Origin: a bacterium
GTDB lineage: Bacteria; Vulcanimicrobiota; Vulcanimicrobiia; Vulcanimicrobiales; Vulcanimicrobiaceae
Length of the DNA stretch: 54,407 nucleotides
Assembly: GCA_021790935.1 (NCBI GenBank)
Contig: JAJYFL010000002.1
Span: 268,315-322,721, forward strand
Direction: 5' to 3'
The notes under the pieces are model-generated. The model saw only the letters and a program-made list of their open reading frames with translations, was not told where the DNA came from and made no database searches. Shown here piece after piece: positions 43,038 through 50,351 of the stretch. A program made the position numbers and the translations under genes. Within the stretch, counting starts at the first letter, position 1. Each line of letters begins with the position of its first letter.

Positions 43038-43067
43038 TCGCTCGTGGACCGAAGGCGCCCTCAACCC

Positions 43068-44483
43068 ATGGACCATGCAACGTATGCTTCCCCGTTCTCG
43101 TGGAGATACGGCCGGACTGAACTTCGCGCGCTGTTCTCGGAACTCGAGCGGCGTAGACTCATGCGCCAAGTTTGGGTCGCGCTCGCGGAGGCGCAGTCTC
43201 GCTATGGGCTCGTCTCCCCGGCGGAGGTCGAGGATTTGCGGGCGCACGCCTCCGACGTCGACATCGATGCCGCGCTCGAGATCGAGCGCGAGATCCAGCA
43301 CGACCTGATGGCGGAGATTCGCGTCTATGCCTCGCAGGCGGCGGTCGGCGGAGGAAAGTTGCATCTCGGCGCTACCTCGATGGATATCGAGGATACGGTC
43401 GAAACCTACCGCATGCGGCGCGCGCTGGCCCTCGTCGGCGCCTCGCTGCACGCTCTGCTCGCACGTTTCTCGGTAAAGATCCGCGAGTACGCCGAGACGG
43501 CGTGCATGGGGCTGACGCATCTGCAACCGGCGGAGCCCACGACGCTCGGGTATCGCTTCGCGGCGTACGCGCAAGATCTGACGATCGACGAAAGCCATCT
43601 GCGGTTCGCGTTCGAGAACCTTACGGCCAAGGGACTGCGCGGCGCCGTCGGAACGGCGGCGTCGTACGAGCATCTGCTGAGCGGCAGCGGCGAGTCGGCG
43701 CAGATGGAGGCGTACGTGCTCGAGCGGTTCGGCCTGCCGGCACGCGAGATCAGCACGCAGACCTATCCGCGGAAGCTCGACTACCTGCTGCTCTCCGCCT
43801 TGGCCGGCTTGGGGGCGTCGCTTTCGAAGTTCGCCGCCGACGTTCGCATCCTGAGTTCGCCCGCGTTCGGCGAGGTCTTCGAACCCTTCGGCGCTTCGCA
43901 GGTGGGCAGTTCGGCGATGCCGTTCAAACGCAACCCGGTCCTGTGCGAACGCATCGGGTCGCTGGCGCGCCTCTTGCCGGCGTATGCGGAGGTCGCGTGG
44001 CAGAACGCGGCGACGAACTATCTCGAGCGCACGCTCGACGACAGCGCGAACCGGAGAACCATCTTGCCGGAGGCGCTCTTGTGCGCCGACGAGATCCTTC
44101 AGCTCGCGCTGAAGGTCGTCGACGGTCTGCGCGTCGATGGAAGGCGCATCGCGCAAAACCTGCGGGCTTACGGGCCGTTTGCCGGAACCGAAGCGGTCAT
44201 GATGGAGGCGGCGCGCGCCGGCGGCGACCGGCAGGCCCTTCACGAGCGGCTTCGCTCGGCGGCGATGACGTCGTGGGACGAGATCGCGCAGGGGAGAGAC
44301 AACCCGCTCGGCCGATTGCTAGCGGAGGACCGCGAGCTCACCGCGTGGATCGACCCCGCCGAGATCCGGCGCATGCTCGAGCCGAGCAAGCATATCGGTA
44401 CCGCACCGGCGCGGGCGCGCGAACTGGCGGCGCGCATCGATGCGCTCCCTCCTTTCCCGATTCAGAAAGAGGTAAAGAGATGA
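43068..44483 (+). CDS. purB: adenylosuccinate lyase
   Basis: PurB cleaves adenylosuccinate and SAICAR in purine synthesis. It has LHLGATSMDIEDT, the catalytic-loop signature GSSAMPFKRNPVLCERI, LTHLQPAEPTTLGYR and NYLERTLDDSANRR. From ATG 43068 it is 471 residues; GTG 43044 would add eight without support. Its stop overlaps the small ORF that leads into purCE. Confidence 0.94.
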   Translation: MDHATYASPFSWRYGRTELRALFSELERRRLMRQVWVALAEAQSRYGLVSPAEVEDLRAHASDVDIDAALEIEREIQHDLMAEIRVYASQAAVGGGKLHLGATSMDIEDTVETYRMRRALALVGASLHALLARFSVKIREYAETACMGLTHLQPAEPTTLGYRFAAYAQDLTIDESHLRFAFENLTAKGLRGAVGTAASYEHLLSGSGESAQMEAYVLERFGLPAREISTQTYPRKLDYLLLSALAGLGASLSKFAADVRILSSPAFGEVFEPFGASQVGSSAMPFKRNPVLCERIGSLARLLPAYAEVAWQNAATNYLERTLDDSANRRTILPEALLCADEILQLALKVVDGLRVDGRRIAQNLRAYGPFAGTEAVMMEAARAGGDRQALHERLRSAAMTSWDEIAQGRDNPLGRLLAEDRELTAWIDPAEIRRMLEPSKHIGTAPARARELAARIDALPPFPIQKEVKR

Positions 44484-44611
44484 CCATGACGGAGCGCCTT
44501 TGGCGGCGCCCTCGGGGCGCGTGCGAGATGATAGTACGACAAGGCGCCATGAGGCCGGGGGCCCCACGCAGTGGGGGGCGCGGAGCGTGTAGCGGAGCGC
44601 CTTTAGAATGA
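44480..44611 (+). CDS. 43-residue ORF coupled to purB and purCE
   Basis: ATG 44480 overlaps the purB stop (ATGA) and is preceded by GAGG at 7 bases. The ORF (MTMTERLWRRPRGACEMIVR start) ends in TGA 44609-44611, which overlaps the purCE ATG (44608). The product is Arg/Gly-rich and resembles no family I know. The DNA could instead be a structured leader: CGGAGCGCCTTT occurs at 44490 and 44593, and GGGGCCCCACGCAGTGGGG can pair. Confidence 0.45.
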   Translation: MTMTERLWRRPRGACEMIVRQGAMRPGAPRSGGRGACSGAPLE

Positions 44612-45810
44612 ACAAGGGCATCGAGATCGCTCGCGGCAAGACGAAGATCCTTTACGAGCACCCCGGGCAGCCGGAGATGCTGGTCGTCAAACAGACCGAT
44701 CGCATCTCCGCCGGCGACGGCGCCCGGCGCAACGAGATCGCGGGGAAAGGACGTTTGGCGGCGCAGACGACCTCGCGCGTCTTTCGCCTGCTGAACCTCT
44801 GCGGTTTGCCGACGCATTTCGTCAACGGCGGGGAAGACGACGACGACAACGAGATGCTCGTGCGCCGGTGCAACATGATCCCGCTCGAGGTCGTCGTCCG
44901 CGGCGTGGTCGCGGGCTCGCTCGCGCGCCGCAATCCCGGGCTGCAGCGCGGCGGGTTGCTGATCCCGCGGATGATCGAATTCTTCGTGAAGGACGATGCC
45001 AACCACGATCCGCAGATCGCTCCGGACGCGATCGTCTCGCAGGGGATCGCTTCGGCGGCGGAGGTCTCGGCCATGTCGGAGATGGCTCGCCTCGCCTTCG
45101 AGATTCTGGCGCATGCATGGCGGCGGCGCGACGTGCTGCTCGTGGATTCGAAGGTGGAGTTCGGGCGGATAGCCAGCGGAGACGGAAAAGGGTCGCTCGT
45201 GATAGCCGACGTTATCGACAACGACGCATGGCGCATCTGGCCCCAGGGCCGCGAAGACCGCATGCTCGACAAGCAGATCTACCGCAACCTCGAGACGGTC
45301 GACGAGGAGGCGCTCGCGCGCGTCAAGAGCGCCTACGAACAGGTAGCCGAGATGGTCGGTGGGTTCCCGGTGATGCGTTCCGGAACGGTCGCGATCTTCG
45401 GCGGCGACGGCGATCAGAGCGAACGCGTCGAACGCATCGCGCAGGCGCTCGGGCAGTACGGGCTTCCGGCGATCCGCCACGTCGCGAGCGCCAGCAAGAC
45501 CCCGGGCTACGTGCTGCAGCTCGCGCAGCAGCATGACGCCACGTTCCCGCGCCTGCTCTACGTCGCGGCGAGCGCCGGCGACGCGGCGCTGCACGCGATG
45601 CTCTCGAGTGCGACGACGAACCCCGTCCTGAACGGCGACGGCGATGCCGACGAAGCCGCGCTGCAGTGCGCCAAGATCTTCGCGCTCGAAGATACGGTGC
45701 TCTTCGGTCGCACGCTGCTCGTGCAGACCAACGCCCGTTCGGCCGTGCTGCACGCCGACGCCGCGCTCAACGCACAGCTGCCGATGCCTCCCAGCTCGCA
45801 GACCGCATAG
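44608..45810 (+). CDS. purC: PurC-PurE fusion (PAICS-like) with degenerate PurE domain
   Basis: Residues 1-250 are an SAICAR synthetase of the animal PAICS type: ARGKTKILYEHPGQPEM, IPLEVVVRGVVAGSLARR, FFVKDDANHDPQIAPD, LLVDSKVEFGRI and VIADVIDNDAWRIWPQGRED. Residues about 255-400 align with PurE (AIR carboxylase): TVAIFGGDGDQSERVERIAQ, PAIRHVASASKTPGYVLQLA. The PurE active-site His of SAHRTP is Ser here (SASKTP), and the AGGAAHLPGM segment is replaced by ASAGDAALHAM. The PurE half is therefore probably not a normal carboxylase. Purine operon context is clear. Confidence 0.9.
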   Translation: MNKGIEIARGKTKILYEHPGQPEMLVVKQTDRISAGDGARRNEIAGKGRLAAQTTSRVFRLLNLCGLPTHFVNGGEDDDDNEMLVRRCNMIPLEVVVRGVVAGSLARRNPGLQRGGLLIPRMIEFFVKDDANHDPQIAPDAIVSQGIASAAEVSAMSEMARLAFEILAHAWRRRDVLLVDSKVEFGRIASGDGKGSLVIADVIDNDAWRIWPQGREDRMLDKQIYRNLETVDEEALARVKSAYEQVAEMVGGFPVMRSGTVAIFGGDGDQSERVERIAQALGQYGLPAIRHVASASKTPGYVLQLAQQHDATFPRLLYVAASAGDAALHAMLSSATTNPVLNGDGDADEAALQCAKIFALEDTVLFGRTLLVQTNARSAVLHADAALNAQLPMPPSSQTA

Positions 45811-45821
45811 CCTGCTGCGCG

Positions 45822-48140
45822 ATGGCGTATCCGAGCTTCCCGGTGATCGGAGTGAGCGACGGCGATCTCGGATCGGCGGCGGCGCGCTCCGGGCTCGCGT
45901 TGCGCGTGGACGAGCTGCGGCGCATCGCGGAGCGGCTCGGGCGCGATCCCAGCCGCGTCGAGGTGCGCGCCTTCGACGCGCAGTGGAGCGAGCATTGCTC
46001 GTATAAGAGCAGCCGGCATCTGCTTGGGCGCCTGCCGACGGATGGCCCGAACGTTATGCAAGGGCCCGGCGAGGATGCGGGCATCCTGCATGTTGGGGAG
46101 TGGAACGGCGAGCGGTACGGCGTCGTCATCGCGCACGAATCGCACAACCATCCTTCGCAGGTGGTGCCGTTTGAGGGGGCGGCGACGGGCGTCGGCGGCA
46201 TCGTGCGCGACGTGCTCTGCATGGGCGCCGAGGTGATCGCCGTGGCGGATGCGCTGCGCTTGGGGCGCACGGAGAGAGCCGATTCGCACCAGCGCTACGT
46301 GGCCCGGAGCGTCGTGAATGGGATCGCCGCCTATGGCAATGCGATCGGCGTGCCGAATCTTGCCGGCGACGTGTATTTCGACGAGCGCTTCGACGAGAAT
46401 TGTCTCGTCAACGTGGTCGCGCTCGGCCTGGTCAAAGAGCGGGACGTGATCCATTCCTGCGCGCCGCCGAACGCGGAGGGCTGGGAGATCGTCCTGGTCG
46501 GGAAGGCGACCGATGCATCGGGATTCGGCGGCGCCGCGTTCTCGTCGGTGAGGCTGGACGAAGGCGACGAAGAGGCCAACAGAGGTGCGGTGCAAGTTCC
46601 CGATCCGTTTCTCAAGAACGTCATCATGCGGGCGAGCTATCGCGTCTTCGAGTATCTGCGCGAACGCAAGCTCGCTGCCGGCTTCAAGGATTTGGGCGCC
46701 GGCGGCATCATGGGCTGCAGCGCGGAACTCTGCGGCAGCGGCGGCTTCGGCGCAGTCGTCGACTTGGATCGCGTGAGCGCGGCGATCCAAGGCATGCGCC
46801 CGGAGGTGCTGGCGGTCGGCGAGACGCAGGAGCGCCTATGCTGGGTGCTTCCGCCGGAGGTCACGCCGGCGGTCCTGCGCATCTACAACGAGGAGTTTTC
46901 GCTGCCGGAGATCGCGCGCGGCGCGGGTGCCGTTGCGATCGGTACGGTGACGCGCGAAAAGCGCTACGTGCTGCTGCATGGCGGCGAGAGCGTGATGGAC
47001 GTGCCGATCGAGTTGCTCGTCGGTACGATTCGCGACGACCTTCCCGTGCCCGTCGTGCCGGAGCCGGCTGCCGTAGACCCGCAACGGCGATGGATCGCCG
47101 GAGAGCGTGCCGTAGGAGATATCTTCGAACGCGTTCTATCTCACCGCGACGTCTGTTCGCGCGAAGCGCTCTACCGCGAGTACGACGGCGTCGTGCGCGG
47201 AACGACGGTGATTCCACGAGGGTACGCCGATGCCGGGGCGATCGCGCCGATTCCGGGCTCGCCATTGGGCGTGGCGCTCTCCGTGGACGGGAACCCGCGC
47301 TATGGGCGGCTCGACGCACGGCGCGCCGCCGAGCTCGCCGTCATCGAGAGCGTGCGCAACGTCGCGGCCGTCGGTGCACGGCCGCTGGGTTTGACCGATT
47401 GCTTGAACTTCGGAGATCCGCGCAACCCCGAGCACTATGCCGAACTCGTCGCGGCGATCGACGGCTTAGCGGTCGCCGCACGCGAGCTCGGAATGGCCTA
47501 CGTCTCCGGGAACGTCAGCCTGTATAACGAGTCCAAGAGCGGCAACGCCGTACCTGCCTCGCCGATCGTAGCCTGCGCCGGCGCGCTCGGCGACGTTGCG
47601 AAGATCGTGACGCTAGCGTTCAAGCGCCCCGGCTCGGCGCTCTATTTCATCGGAGAGGCGCAGAACGCGATCGGCGGCTCGGTACTCGCGGAGGTGCTTG
47701 GCGTGCGGGGCGCGCCGCTCCCGAATATCGCATACGCGCGCGTGCGCGGCGAGCTCGAATCGCTCGCGCGCGCTATCGATGCGGGGCTGGTCCTGGCCGC
47801 GCACGACATCTCCGACGGCGGCCTCGCGACGGCGATCGCGGAGATGGCCTTCGCGGCCGTCACTCAGCTCGGGCGTACGGTTGGAGCGCGGCTCGACGAT
47901 CCAAGCGCGTGGACGGGCGGTGCGGCCGGCAACCTGGAGGCATTATTCGGAGAGGCCGGCGGTTTCGTCGTGGAGGTGGCCGATGCCGCGGCCTTCGATC
48001 GCGCGTGCGCGGGCACGCCGTTCGTCAGCGCGATCGGCACGACGATAGCCCAACCCGCGATCGCGATCGGCGCGGAGCGCTTCGATCTCGCGCCCTTGCA
48101 CGAGGCGTGGAGGCGGCCGCTTGCGGAGGTCTATCCGTGA
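45822..48140 (+). CDS. purL: phosphoribosylformylglycinamidine synthase, large subunit (small-type PurL)
   Basis: The 772-residue PurL makes FGAM from FGAR with ammonia from PurQ. It has QWSEHCSYKSSRHLLG, the ATP-site region VIAHESHNHPSQVVPFEGAA, GFGGAAFSSVRLDE, the second-half DGNPRYGRLDARRAAELAVI and LTDCLNFGDPRNPEHYAEL, and LVLAAHDISDGGLATAIAEM. It is the small, two-lobed form which needs PurQ and PurS. ATG 45822 is used although its ribosome site is weak. Its stop overlaps purQ. Confidence 0.93.
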   Translation: MAYPSFPVIGVSDGDLGSAAARSGLALRVDELRRIAERLGRDPSRVEVRAFDAQWSEHCSYKSSRHLLGRLPTDGPNVMQGPGEDAGILHVGEWNGERYGVVIAHESHNHPSQVVPFEGAATGVGGIVRDVLCMGAEVIAVADALRLGRTERADSHQRYVARSVVNGIAAYGNAIGVPNLAGDVYFDERFDENCLVNVVALGLVKERDVIHSCAPPNAEGWEIVLVGKATDASGFGGAAFSSVRLDEGDEEANRGAVQVPDPFLKNVIMRASYRVFEYLRERKLAAGFKDLGAGGIMGCSAELCGSGGFGAVVDLDRVSAAIQGMRPEVLAVGETQERLCWVLPPEVTPAVLRIYNEEFSLPEIARGAGAVAIGTVTREKRYVLLHGGESVMDVPIELLVGTIRDDLPVPVVPEPAAVDPQRRWIAGERAVGDIFERVLSHRDVCSREALYREYDGVVRGTTVIPRGYADAGAIAPIPGSPLGVALSVDGNPRYGRLDARRAAELAVIESVRNVAAVGARPLGLTDCLNFGDPRNPEHYAELVAAIDGLAVAARELGMAYVSGNVSLYNESKSGNAVPASPIVACAGALGDVAKIVTLAFKRPGSALYFIGEAQNAIGGSVLAEVLGVRGAPLPNIAYARVRGELESLARAIDAGLVLAAHDISDGGLATAIAEMAFAAVTQLGRTVGARLDDPSAWTGGAAGNLEALFGEAGGFVVEVADAAAFDRACAGTPFVSAIGTTIAQPAIAIGAERFDLAPLHEAWRRPLAEVYP

Positions 48141-48907: not shown

Positions 48908-49323
48908 GCGAGCGGAGCGTCGCCATTGCGCTGAAGATCCCCGACAACGCGGCCTACACCGCGCTTCTTGCCCTGCGGCGTTTAGGGGTCCGCGTCGCGC
49001 GGGTAGAACGCGCGCAGATCTTGCAGTTCGACGACGGCGGCGACGCGGGCGCTGCGGTGCGGCGGATAGCGCGGAACGAAGCGCTCTTCAACCCGAACGT
49101 ACACGAGTTGAAGGTGCTGGAGAAGAACGTGCCGCGCCCGGGCGAGGCCTGGATCGAGATGCTGCGCGGGGAGCCGGAGGCTGCCGGTGGTTCGGGCGTG
49201 CGCCGTTCCATGGGTTGGCGGCTCTATACCGAAGGAGATACGCCGGCCGATGCGGCGACGGTACGGGCGGCCGTCGAAGCGCTGCTCTGCAATCCCGCGA
49301 TCGAAAGGGCCATCCTGGAATGA
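48904..49323 (+). CDS. PurS-like FGAM synthase accessory subunit, divergent
   Basis: The 139-residue protein carries the PurS pattern in residues 1-66 (VAIALKIPDNAAYTALLALR, RLGVRVARVERAQILQF, ending NPNVHELKVLE), and a second PurS-like half in 100-139 (CNPAIERAILE). The typical PurS is about 80 residues, so this one is longer, perhaps with a duplicated fold or an extension. The 4-base overlaps with purQ and purP strongly support a PurS job. The assignment rests mostly on context. Confidence 0.7.
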   Translation: MSERSVAIALKIPDNAAYTALLALRRLGVRVARVERAQILQFDDGGDAGAAVRRIARNEALFNPNVHELKVLEKNVPRPGEAWIEMLRGEPEAAGGSGVRRSMGWRLYTEGDTPADAATVRAAVEALLCNPAIERAILE

Positions 49324-50351
49324 GCCGGCACGACGGACAATACACCATTGCGACGCTCGGTTCGCACTCGGCCTTGCAGATTCTCAAGGGCGCGCACGAC
49401 GAGGGATTCCCGACGCTGGCGATCGCCAATCGCGAGACGGAGCGCCTCTACCGCTCCTTCAAGTTCGTCGACGAAGTCATCGCGATCGAGCGGTATCAGG
49501 ATTTTCCGAGCATCGTCGACCGGCTCGAAGAACGCAAGATCATCGTCGTGCCGCACGGGTCGTTCGTCGCGTATCTTTCGCTCGACGATCACAAGAAGAT
49601 GCGGATTCCGTACTTCGGGAACAAGGCCGTCCTCGATTGGGAAGCGAGCCGCGAACTGCAGCGGCAATGGCTCTCCCGCGCAAATCTGACGCTGCCTCGG
49701 CAGTTCAAGAGCGGCACGGAGATCGACCGCCCGGTCATCGTGAAATTGTACGGGGCGCAGGGCGGCAAGGGCTACATGTTCATTCGGGACGCGCAAGACT
49801 TCGAGACGCGCGCCGCCCACTTAAAGCAGCAGTACGTCATCCAAGAATACATCATCGGCGTTCCGCTCTACATCCATTACTTCTATTCGCCGCTCGAGGA
49901 TCAGCTCGAGATCATGAGCATGGACCGGCGTTACGAAACCAACGTCGATTCCTTGGGGCGGATTCCCGCCGCCGCGCAGGAAGGCATGGACGTGAGCCCC
50001 TCGTACGTCGTGGTCGGCAACTCGCCGGTCTCGCTGCGCGAGTCGATGCTTGCGGAGACCTACCGCATGGGCGAGGACGTCGTCCGCGTCAGCAAGGAGA
50101 TCTGCGGACCGAAGGGCCTTTTCGGTGCATTCTGCATCGAAACGATCATCACGCCCGACATGCAGTTCTACGTGATGGAGATCTCGGCGCGCATCGTCGC
50201 CGGCACCAACCTCTTCATCGACGGATCGCCGTATTCGTACTTGAATTATTCCGAGCCGATGTCTACCGGGCGGCGGATCGCTCGCGAACTCAAGAACGCA
50301 CTTTTCAGCAATAATCTGCGTTTAGTACTCGATGATTCGAGCGTGCTTTAA
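49320..50351 (+). CDS. purP: archaeal-type FAICAR synthetase (PurP)
   Basis: The 343-residue ATP-grasp enzyme is of the PurP family, which makes FAICAR from AICAR, formate and ATP in archaea. It follows the family closely: TIATLGSHSALQILKGAHDE, IVVPHGSFVAYLSLDDHKKM, GAQGGKGYMFI, YIHYFYSPLEDQLEIMSMDR, PSYVVVGNSPVSLRESML, MGEDVVRVSKEICGPKGLF and MEISARIVAGTNLFIDGSPY. ATG 49320 overlaps the PurS-like stop. Bacteria normally use PurH, and none is in this window, so PurP probably supplies this step. Confidence 0.92.
   Translation: MSRHDGQYTIATLGSHSALQILKGAHDEGFPTLAIANRETERLYRSFKFVDEVIAIERYQDFPSIVDRLEERKIIVVPHGSFVAYLSLDDHKKMRIPYFGNKAVLDWEASRELQRQWLSRANLTLPRQFKSGTEIDRPVIVKLYGAQGGKGYMFIRDAQDFETRAAHLKQQYVIQEYIIGVPLYIHYFYSPLEDQLEIMSMDRRYETNVDSLGRIPAAAQEGMDVSPSYVVVGNSPVSLRESMLAETYRMGEDVVRVSKEICGPKGLFGAFCIETIITPDMQFYVMEISARIVAGTNLFIDGSPYSYLNYSEPMSTGRRIARELKNALFSNNLRLVLDDSSVL

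Follow-up and report, generated by a model that had tools for sequence, protein, structure and literature searches.

Human PAICS is an octamer (PMC9376930; PMC9035706), and its C-terminus is described as ending in a stable helix on the face of the plate (PMC9035706). The AIR-carboxylase site of the enzyme has been placed in three short motifs, MGSTSD (residues 272-277), SAHK (301-304) and VAGRSNGL (328-335), and the residues of the SAICAR synthetase half that contact ATP, CAIR and Asp have been named (PMC9376930). According to the same account, His303 is conserved universally across PurE of both classes, and its mutants do not complement. AIR carboxylase is described as an enzyme found almost only in eukaryotes (PMC4177761), and the fused PurCE as common among them (PMC3261824). 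Biosynthetic fusions that carry an inactive domain have also been described: in fungal CAD-like proteins a dihydroorotase-like domain is inactive, its activity is encoded separately, and a structural role has been proposed for it (PMC9863657).

A PAICS-type fusion is described here from a genome of Candidatus Eremiobacterota (G000; 2.65 Mb, 33 contigs). The window (i.e. the whole stretch of 54,407 nucleotides that was analysed) corresponds to G000:C9:268315-322721, and within it the fusion lies in a pur operon ordered purB, fusion, purL, purQ, a 139-aa ORF and a PurP-type ligase. The features of the operon and of the fusion are as follows, in window positions:

43056-44483, forward strand: purB (adenylosuccinate lyase), upstream in the pur operon; TIGR00928, 352 bits
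44608-45810, forward strand: PAICS-type fusion gene (PurC plus class II-derived PurE relic), 400 aa, ATG start
44608-45366, forward strand: SAICAR synthetase (PurC) domain, residues 1-253, with conserved substrate-site residues
45379-45774, forward strand: PurE-derived relic domain, residues 258-389; structure match to T. denticola 3rg8, class II profile
45400-45417, forward strand: former phosphate loop, GGDGDQ replacing MGSxSD (human 272-277)
45487-45498, forward strand: SASK replacing SAHK, catalytic His303 changed to Ser296, Lys retained
45568-45591, forward strand: former AGRSN loop (human 328-335), now ASAGDAAL
45628-45633, forward strand: deletion point of the lid segment (human about 349-373, CPP...SSLxxPSG)
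45646-45774, forward strand: two C-terminal helices (residues 347-359 and 363-389), the conserved part of the relic
45807-48140, forward strand: purL, whose open frame extends to the stop codon of the fusion; TIGR01736, 657 bits
48131-48907, forward strand: purQ; TIGR01737, 200 bits
48904-49323, forward strand: 139-aa ORF between purQ and the PurP-like gene; a 22-bit PRK05783 match only
49314-50351, forward strand: PurP-type formate--phosphoribosylaminoimidazolecarboxamide ligase of the pur operon; 384 bits, below the cut-off of 580 of its best model

The genome also encodes PurH (488 bits, below the cut-off of 528), so that one late step of purine synthesis could proceed either by PurH or by the PurP-type ligase.

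A preliminary description, made from the letters of this DNA, had recognized an animal-like PurC-PurE fusion at 44608-45810, and this proved accurate. The coordinates mark an exact open reading frame with no stop or frameshift, which is the sole PurC of the genome and carries PurC N-terminally and PurE C-terminally on a single chain. Among solved structures the best matches are PAICS of silkworm (4ja0; 2e-66, residues 7-349) and of human (2h31; 1.1e-57, residues 2-342), and the predicted model of the fusion matches human PAICS 6yb8 over its whole length (Z 44.2, 386 residues, rmsd 2.8). Pfam assigns residues 7-233 to SAICAR_synt at 202.7 bits (cut-off 20) and, weakly, residues 261-342 to AIRC at 33.2 bits (cut-off 30), the latter covering profile positions 2-82 of 148 only. 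Among 40 named contigs with a related gene, 38 read through both domains; of the exceptions, L006 ends at residue 151, and the gene of L043 continues past the contig end. Three contigs (L032, L036 and L043) are titled Rhodospirillales or Acidimicrobiaceae yet hold a gene of the Eremiobacterota type, and their titles are probably misbinned or mislabelled.

The PurC half combines the SAICAR_synt domain with the ATP and CAIR/Asp residues of a SAICAR synthetase. Thirteen positions (G10, K11, T12, K13, K128, D130, D134, K182, E184, D201, D206, K222 and R226) are invariant in 61 aligned sequences, and the contact residues named for human PAICS (PMC9376930) match the invariant residues of the window protein. 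The NCBIfam purC model TIGR00081 scores the protein at 146.5 bits, below its cut-off of 189.9, which counts against PurC membership. Judged by its residues, the PurC half looks active.

The PurE half differs at each part of the site. GGDGDQ, SASK and ASAGDAAL stand where an AIR-carboxylase site of the PAICS type has MGSxSD, SAHK and AGRSN, and the lid, of about 25 residues, is missing. The catalytic His and the phosphate-binding loop of a class II PurE are thus both absent, and as a class I PurE the domain scores 37.3 bits (TIGR01162 cut-off 149.6) without SAHRTP or AAHLPG. The preliminary description had read these changes as SAHRTP becoming SASKTP with an altered AAHLPG loop; the changes are present, but the right reference is class II (SAHK, AGRSN) rather than class I. 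Its view that PurE chemistry was probably lost agrees with the missing site residues, from which loss of AIR-carboxylase activity in this half of the window protein is very likely. A sequencing fault was rejected, because the altered motifs recur in dozens of independently assembled genomes; chance or artefact was rejected on the 38 contigs that read through both domains and on the low scores of shuffled relics (see below).

The descent of the relic was assessed with two profiles, one based on 18 intact class II domains and the other on 22 sequences of class I PurE. The class II profile outscored the class I profile in 82 of 82 relics from the window's family (median 71.3 vs 12.1 bits), including the window relic (92.8 vs 26.4 bits); shuffled relics scored at most 5.4 bits. 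The relic is accordingly of class II descent, as is the PurE part of PAICS, and the alternative of a class I PurE fused to PurC was rejected by this comparison. An AlphaFold2 monomer model built on the 61 aligned sequences had a mean pLDDT of 93, with ten-residue blocks at 90-98 over residues 251-380 and 83 in the last block of the domain. Taken alone, the modelled relic matched the class II PurE of T. denticola (3rg8) with Z 17.4 and an rmsd of 1.2 Å over 132 residues; the remaining PurE entries listed were more distant (Z of 14.8 or less). The relic is thus predicted to fold like a class II PurE, although the model may lean toward the fold of intact homologues because its alignment contained them. 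Comparison with both PurE classes and modelling had been proposed in the preliminary description, as had a search for the real PurE elsewhere in the genome. That search returned a canonical class I purE at G000:C22:177732-178169 (211.8 bits, with SAHRTP and AAHLPG) and a purK at G000:C22:176653-177702 (391 bits) that overlaps or adjoins it, on a contig other than that of the fusion.

The distribution of these genes was surveyed in 149 genomes of the phylum, of which 120 contained PurC. The window's family (f1) accounts for 99 genomes; f2 belongs to the same order as the window, and f3 to the same class but another order. Standalone PurC rows from f14 and f15 and duplicate loci were left out of the motif comparison, dN/dS, conservation and PurC tree, as were the purC fragments of G054, G124 and G028. 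G112_L173, a contamination-like partial gene on a 4-kb contig, was kept in the motif and profile comparisons and left out of the conservation counts. Two fusion copies (L106, L126) were found in G102, a genome scored as 7% contaminated that is probably a mixture of strains.

All 13 f3 fusions that could be read have an intact PurE site (G028, the fourteenth genome, has a purC fragment only), and neither class I PurE nor PurK above cut-off was found in any of the 14 genomes. The same combination of an intact site with no class I PurE and no PurK above cut-off occurred in G006 and G008 (f6), G010 (f8, with AGKSN) and G133 (f13). All three f6 fusions are intact; the third, G007 (L086 G007:C18, L203 G007:C8), carries SVHK and has class I PurE (212.9 bits) and PurK (330 bits) as well, and its possession of both routes together may be a snapshot of a takeover. 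In f2 the His is lost in 4/4 fusions (SAQK, NAQK, SALK) and the lid retained; class I PurE was present in 4/4 genomes and PurK above cut-off in three, the fourth being a contig-edge fragment. In f1 the loops are altered and the lid is missing throughout. Class I PurE of at least 150 bits was found in 90/99 f1 genomes, PurK above cut-off in 80/99 and both in 78/99; seven had neither at these thresholds, mostly incomplete assemblies, with G057 scored 96% complete.

Two further states were encountered. In f1 genus g35, six genes (L053, L066, L050, L044, L046 and L047) stop right after PurC with purL immediately next, and no trace of a PurE domain followed PurC in any frame of these six (a seventh is cut by the contig end). 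The domain is therefore dispensable in at least one background, since g35 lost it cleanly yet retains PurC; it is retained in all 36 other f1 genera examined. In f13, the PurE domains of L060 (G132:C392) and L088 (G131:C50) are degenerate, independently of f1, and neither class I PurE nor PurK above cut-off was found in G131 or G132, the latter scored as 100% complete. A purM gene lies downstream of the degenerate fusion in G132. Lastly, f14 and f15 (7 genomes) have a free-standing PurC of another type in six, class I PurE in 6/7 (G135 with a 61-bit fragment only) and PurK of 285-381 bits in all seven, only G139 being above cut-off.

A PurC tree was built in which each f1 genus had a single row, except that g2, g5, g32 and g37 had two where several were usable and g35 was included in full; the partial genes G034, G047 and G112_L173 were omitted. 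The split between f1+f2+f3 and f6+f8+f13 was fully supported, and f2 and f3 each formed one clade. The tree did not place f2 and f3 outside f1, which was not resolved against them, and its root fell inside f1 and is not trusted. The human PAICS row, with a length of 2.27, was very long and joined f13 at an unstarred node (94/77). In the class I PurE tree a single gain in f1+f2 was neither shown nor rejected (p-AU 0.225). Fusions outside the phylum were also sought on plasmids, where none covered 80% of the query among 67 plasmid records with a match, and on viral contigs, where 22 matches reached query residue 294 at most and 21 of them ended by residue 256 (i.e. PurC).

The preliminary description had held that close homologues restoring the His would speak against loss of the site. 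In the letter such homologues exist: in eight of the 81 f1 relics the catalytic position is occupied by His (as SAH in one of them). These eight belong to one derived subclade, however, and Lys304, the phosphate loop, AGRSN and the lid are missing from them as well; none of the 81 combines SAHK, AGRSN and the lid. All eight fall within a starred 14-row clade of the PurC tree nested among relics without His. Regain is the simpler reading because of this nesting, and retention of the His of the STH/SAH subclade from an ancestor was rejected on the same ground.

We consider it probable that the window protein is a SAICAR synthetase in which a dead class II AIR-carboxylase domain has been retained as an assembly scaffold after a takeover by PurE and PurK. 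The ancestor of this bacterial class would have used a fused PurC-PurE as animals do, forming CAIR directly from AIR and CO2. In the window's order, class I PurE and its ATP-using partner PurK may then have arrived (or been kept) and taken over CAIR formation, after which the fused site would have decayed, the catalytic His first and the phosphate and AGRSN loops and lid later, with loss of the whole domain as the last step. We infer this order from the states seen in living lineages rather than from a dated tree. The fold and C-terminal helices would have been kept for holding the PurC domains in a PAICS-like, probably octameric, assembly of the kind that PAICS forms through its PurE core, a role proposed by analogy since fold and helices are retained and human PAICS is octameric. 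By sequence, the window protein has the makeup of a dead-domain scaffold, i.e. an apparently inactive domain on an apparently active fusion, with the activity encoded separately. The absence of the domain from g35, the degenerate domains of G131 and G132 with no PurE or PurK found, and the seven f1 genomes with neither count against this explanation, as do the invariant Ser301 of the relics (see below) and the PurC tree, in which f2 and f3 do not fall outside f1.

The pattern of conservation bears on whether the relic has instead become regulatory, its old AIR/CAIR pocket binding a nucleotide that tunes PurC. The domain is under selection and predicted to be folded, Ser301 and Pro306 are invariant in 36/36 f1 genera, and Phe320, Asn408 and Arg297 are fixed in f1 but not in f3; some pocket chemistry may therefore remain, given the invariant Ser301. 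However, the relic no longer has the phosphate loop, the Arg331 equivalent or the lid, and mean conservation at 18 site positions is 0.48 across the 36 f1 genera vs 0.94 in f3, which places these positions among the most variable of the relic. The C-terminal helices (human 386-420), not the pocket, are the conserved part, with mean conservation of 0.77 in f1 vs 0.78 in f3. A regulatory role appears unlikely on this evidence.

Equally unlikely, in our estimation, is a functionless leftover that is decaying toward deletion as in g35. Selection was estimated as dN/dS (NG86) within genera, a measure that is crude for GC-rich genes and with dS near saturation in many pairs. The PurE half had dN/dS below 1 in all ten f1 genera with usable pairs (means 0.040-0.475; g16 and g34 saturated), exceeding the PurC half in eight and not in g7 and g26 (one pair each). 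Values for the PurE and PurC halves were 0.191 vs 0.075 in g5 (52 pairs), 0.074 vs 0.022 in g32 (10 pairs), 0.475 vs 0.235 in g37 (21 pairs) and 0.040 vs 0.029 in g12 (39 pairs), and in intact f3 the halves were alike (g43, 0.060 and 0.066; g47, 0.073 and 0.071; g44, 0.116 and 0.153). The relic is under purifying selection, mostly relaxed. This relaxation relative to PurC in most genera favors a leftover, as do the clean deletion in g35 and the lower mean pairwise identity of the PurE half within f1 (0.52 vs 0.76 for PurC). On the other side, the domain persists in the 36 other f1 genera with dN/dS well below 1, 24 of its positions are at least 95% conserved in f1, and the window gene is free of frameshifts, although selection against misfolding alone could mimic part of the conservation signal. 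A pseudogene was rejected on the basis of the uninterrupted frame and the low dN/dS.

It is considerably less probable that the dead class II domain co-assembles with class I PurE, docking the N5-CAIR mutase onto PurC and channelling CAIR. Both partners have the PurE fold, CAIR is believed to be handed from one site of intact PAICS to the other (PMC9376930), and in f1 and f2 the damaged domain accompanies class I PurE in nearly all genomes. If so, the takeover enzyme would be plugged into the socket of the enzyme that it replaced. However, class I and class II subunits are distant in sequence, and g35 manages without the domain.

Continued activity of the domain, as an AIR carboxylase or mutase whose site has changed, is scarcely credible: the eight His-bearing relics and the seven f1 genomes without PurE and PurK at the thresholds used favor it, but the residues of the phosphate loop, Lys304 and AGRSN are absent even from those eight, separate PurE and PurK are present, and mutation of the His is described as leaving the enzymes of human, chicken, E. 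coli and A. aceti dead or nearly so (PMC9376930).

The scaffold reading, if correct, means that a lineage of soil bacteria has an animal-like two-part purine enzyme whose PurE half, where separate PurE and PurK are present, is apparently dead and probably structural. An animal-type AIR-to-SAICAR enzyme occurs in a bacterial phylum, and a whole order has PAICS, with neither PurK nor class I PurE found in these searches. The phylum shows apparent stages of the replacement of a route, namely fusion alone, both routes, site damaged, domain dead but kept, and domain deleted. The persistence of dead domains in biosynthetic fusions could be tested here on natural homologues that differ in just the PurE domain. 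As a warning for annotation, a PF00731 match above the gathering score is in this group not equivalent to a PurE enzyme. No reports of PurC carrying a dead PurE domain, or of Eremiobacterota purine genes, were found in the open-access literature; biosynthetic fusions that keep a dead domain are known as a kind, and the Eremiobacterota case, with its graded series, appears to be new.

Compared with known systems, the window protein resembles animal PAICS (human 2h31 and 6yb8, silkworm 4ja0) in domain order, alignment across two domains, SAICAR-synthetase residues and predicted fold (Z 44.2 and 43.5). Unlike animal PAICS, it has lost the PurE site and lid, and a separate class I PurE, together with PurK, presumably supplies its CAIR. 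The relic's predicted fold is like that of the class II AIR carboxylase of T. denticola (3rg8), also the best solved match of an intact f3 domain; the T. denticola protein is a free-standing active enzyme, whereas the relic is fused and lacks the His, phosphate loop, AGRSN and lid. A close parallel in kind is offered by fungal CAD-like proteins (e.g. yeast Ura2), as biosynthetic fusions with one dead domain and its activity supplied by a separate gene. The two differ in that CAD is a pyrimidine fusion of eukaryotes, whereas the present one is a purine fusion of bacteria, with intact, intermediate, relic and deleted states found in one phylum.
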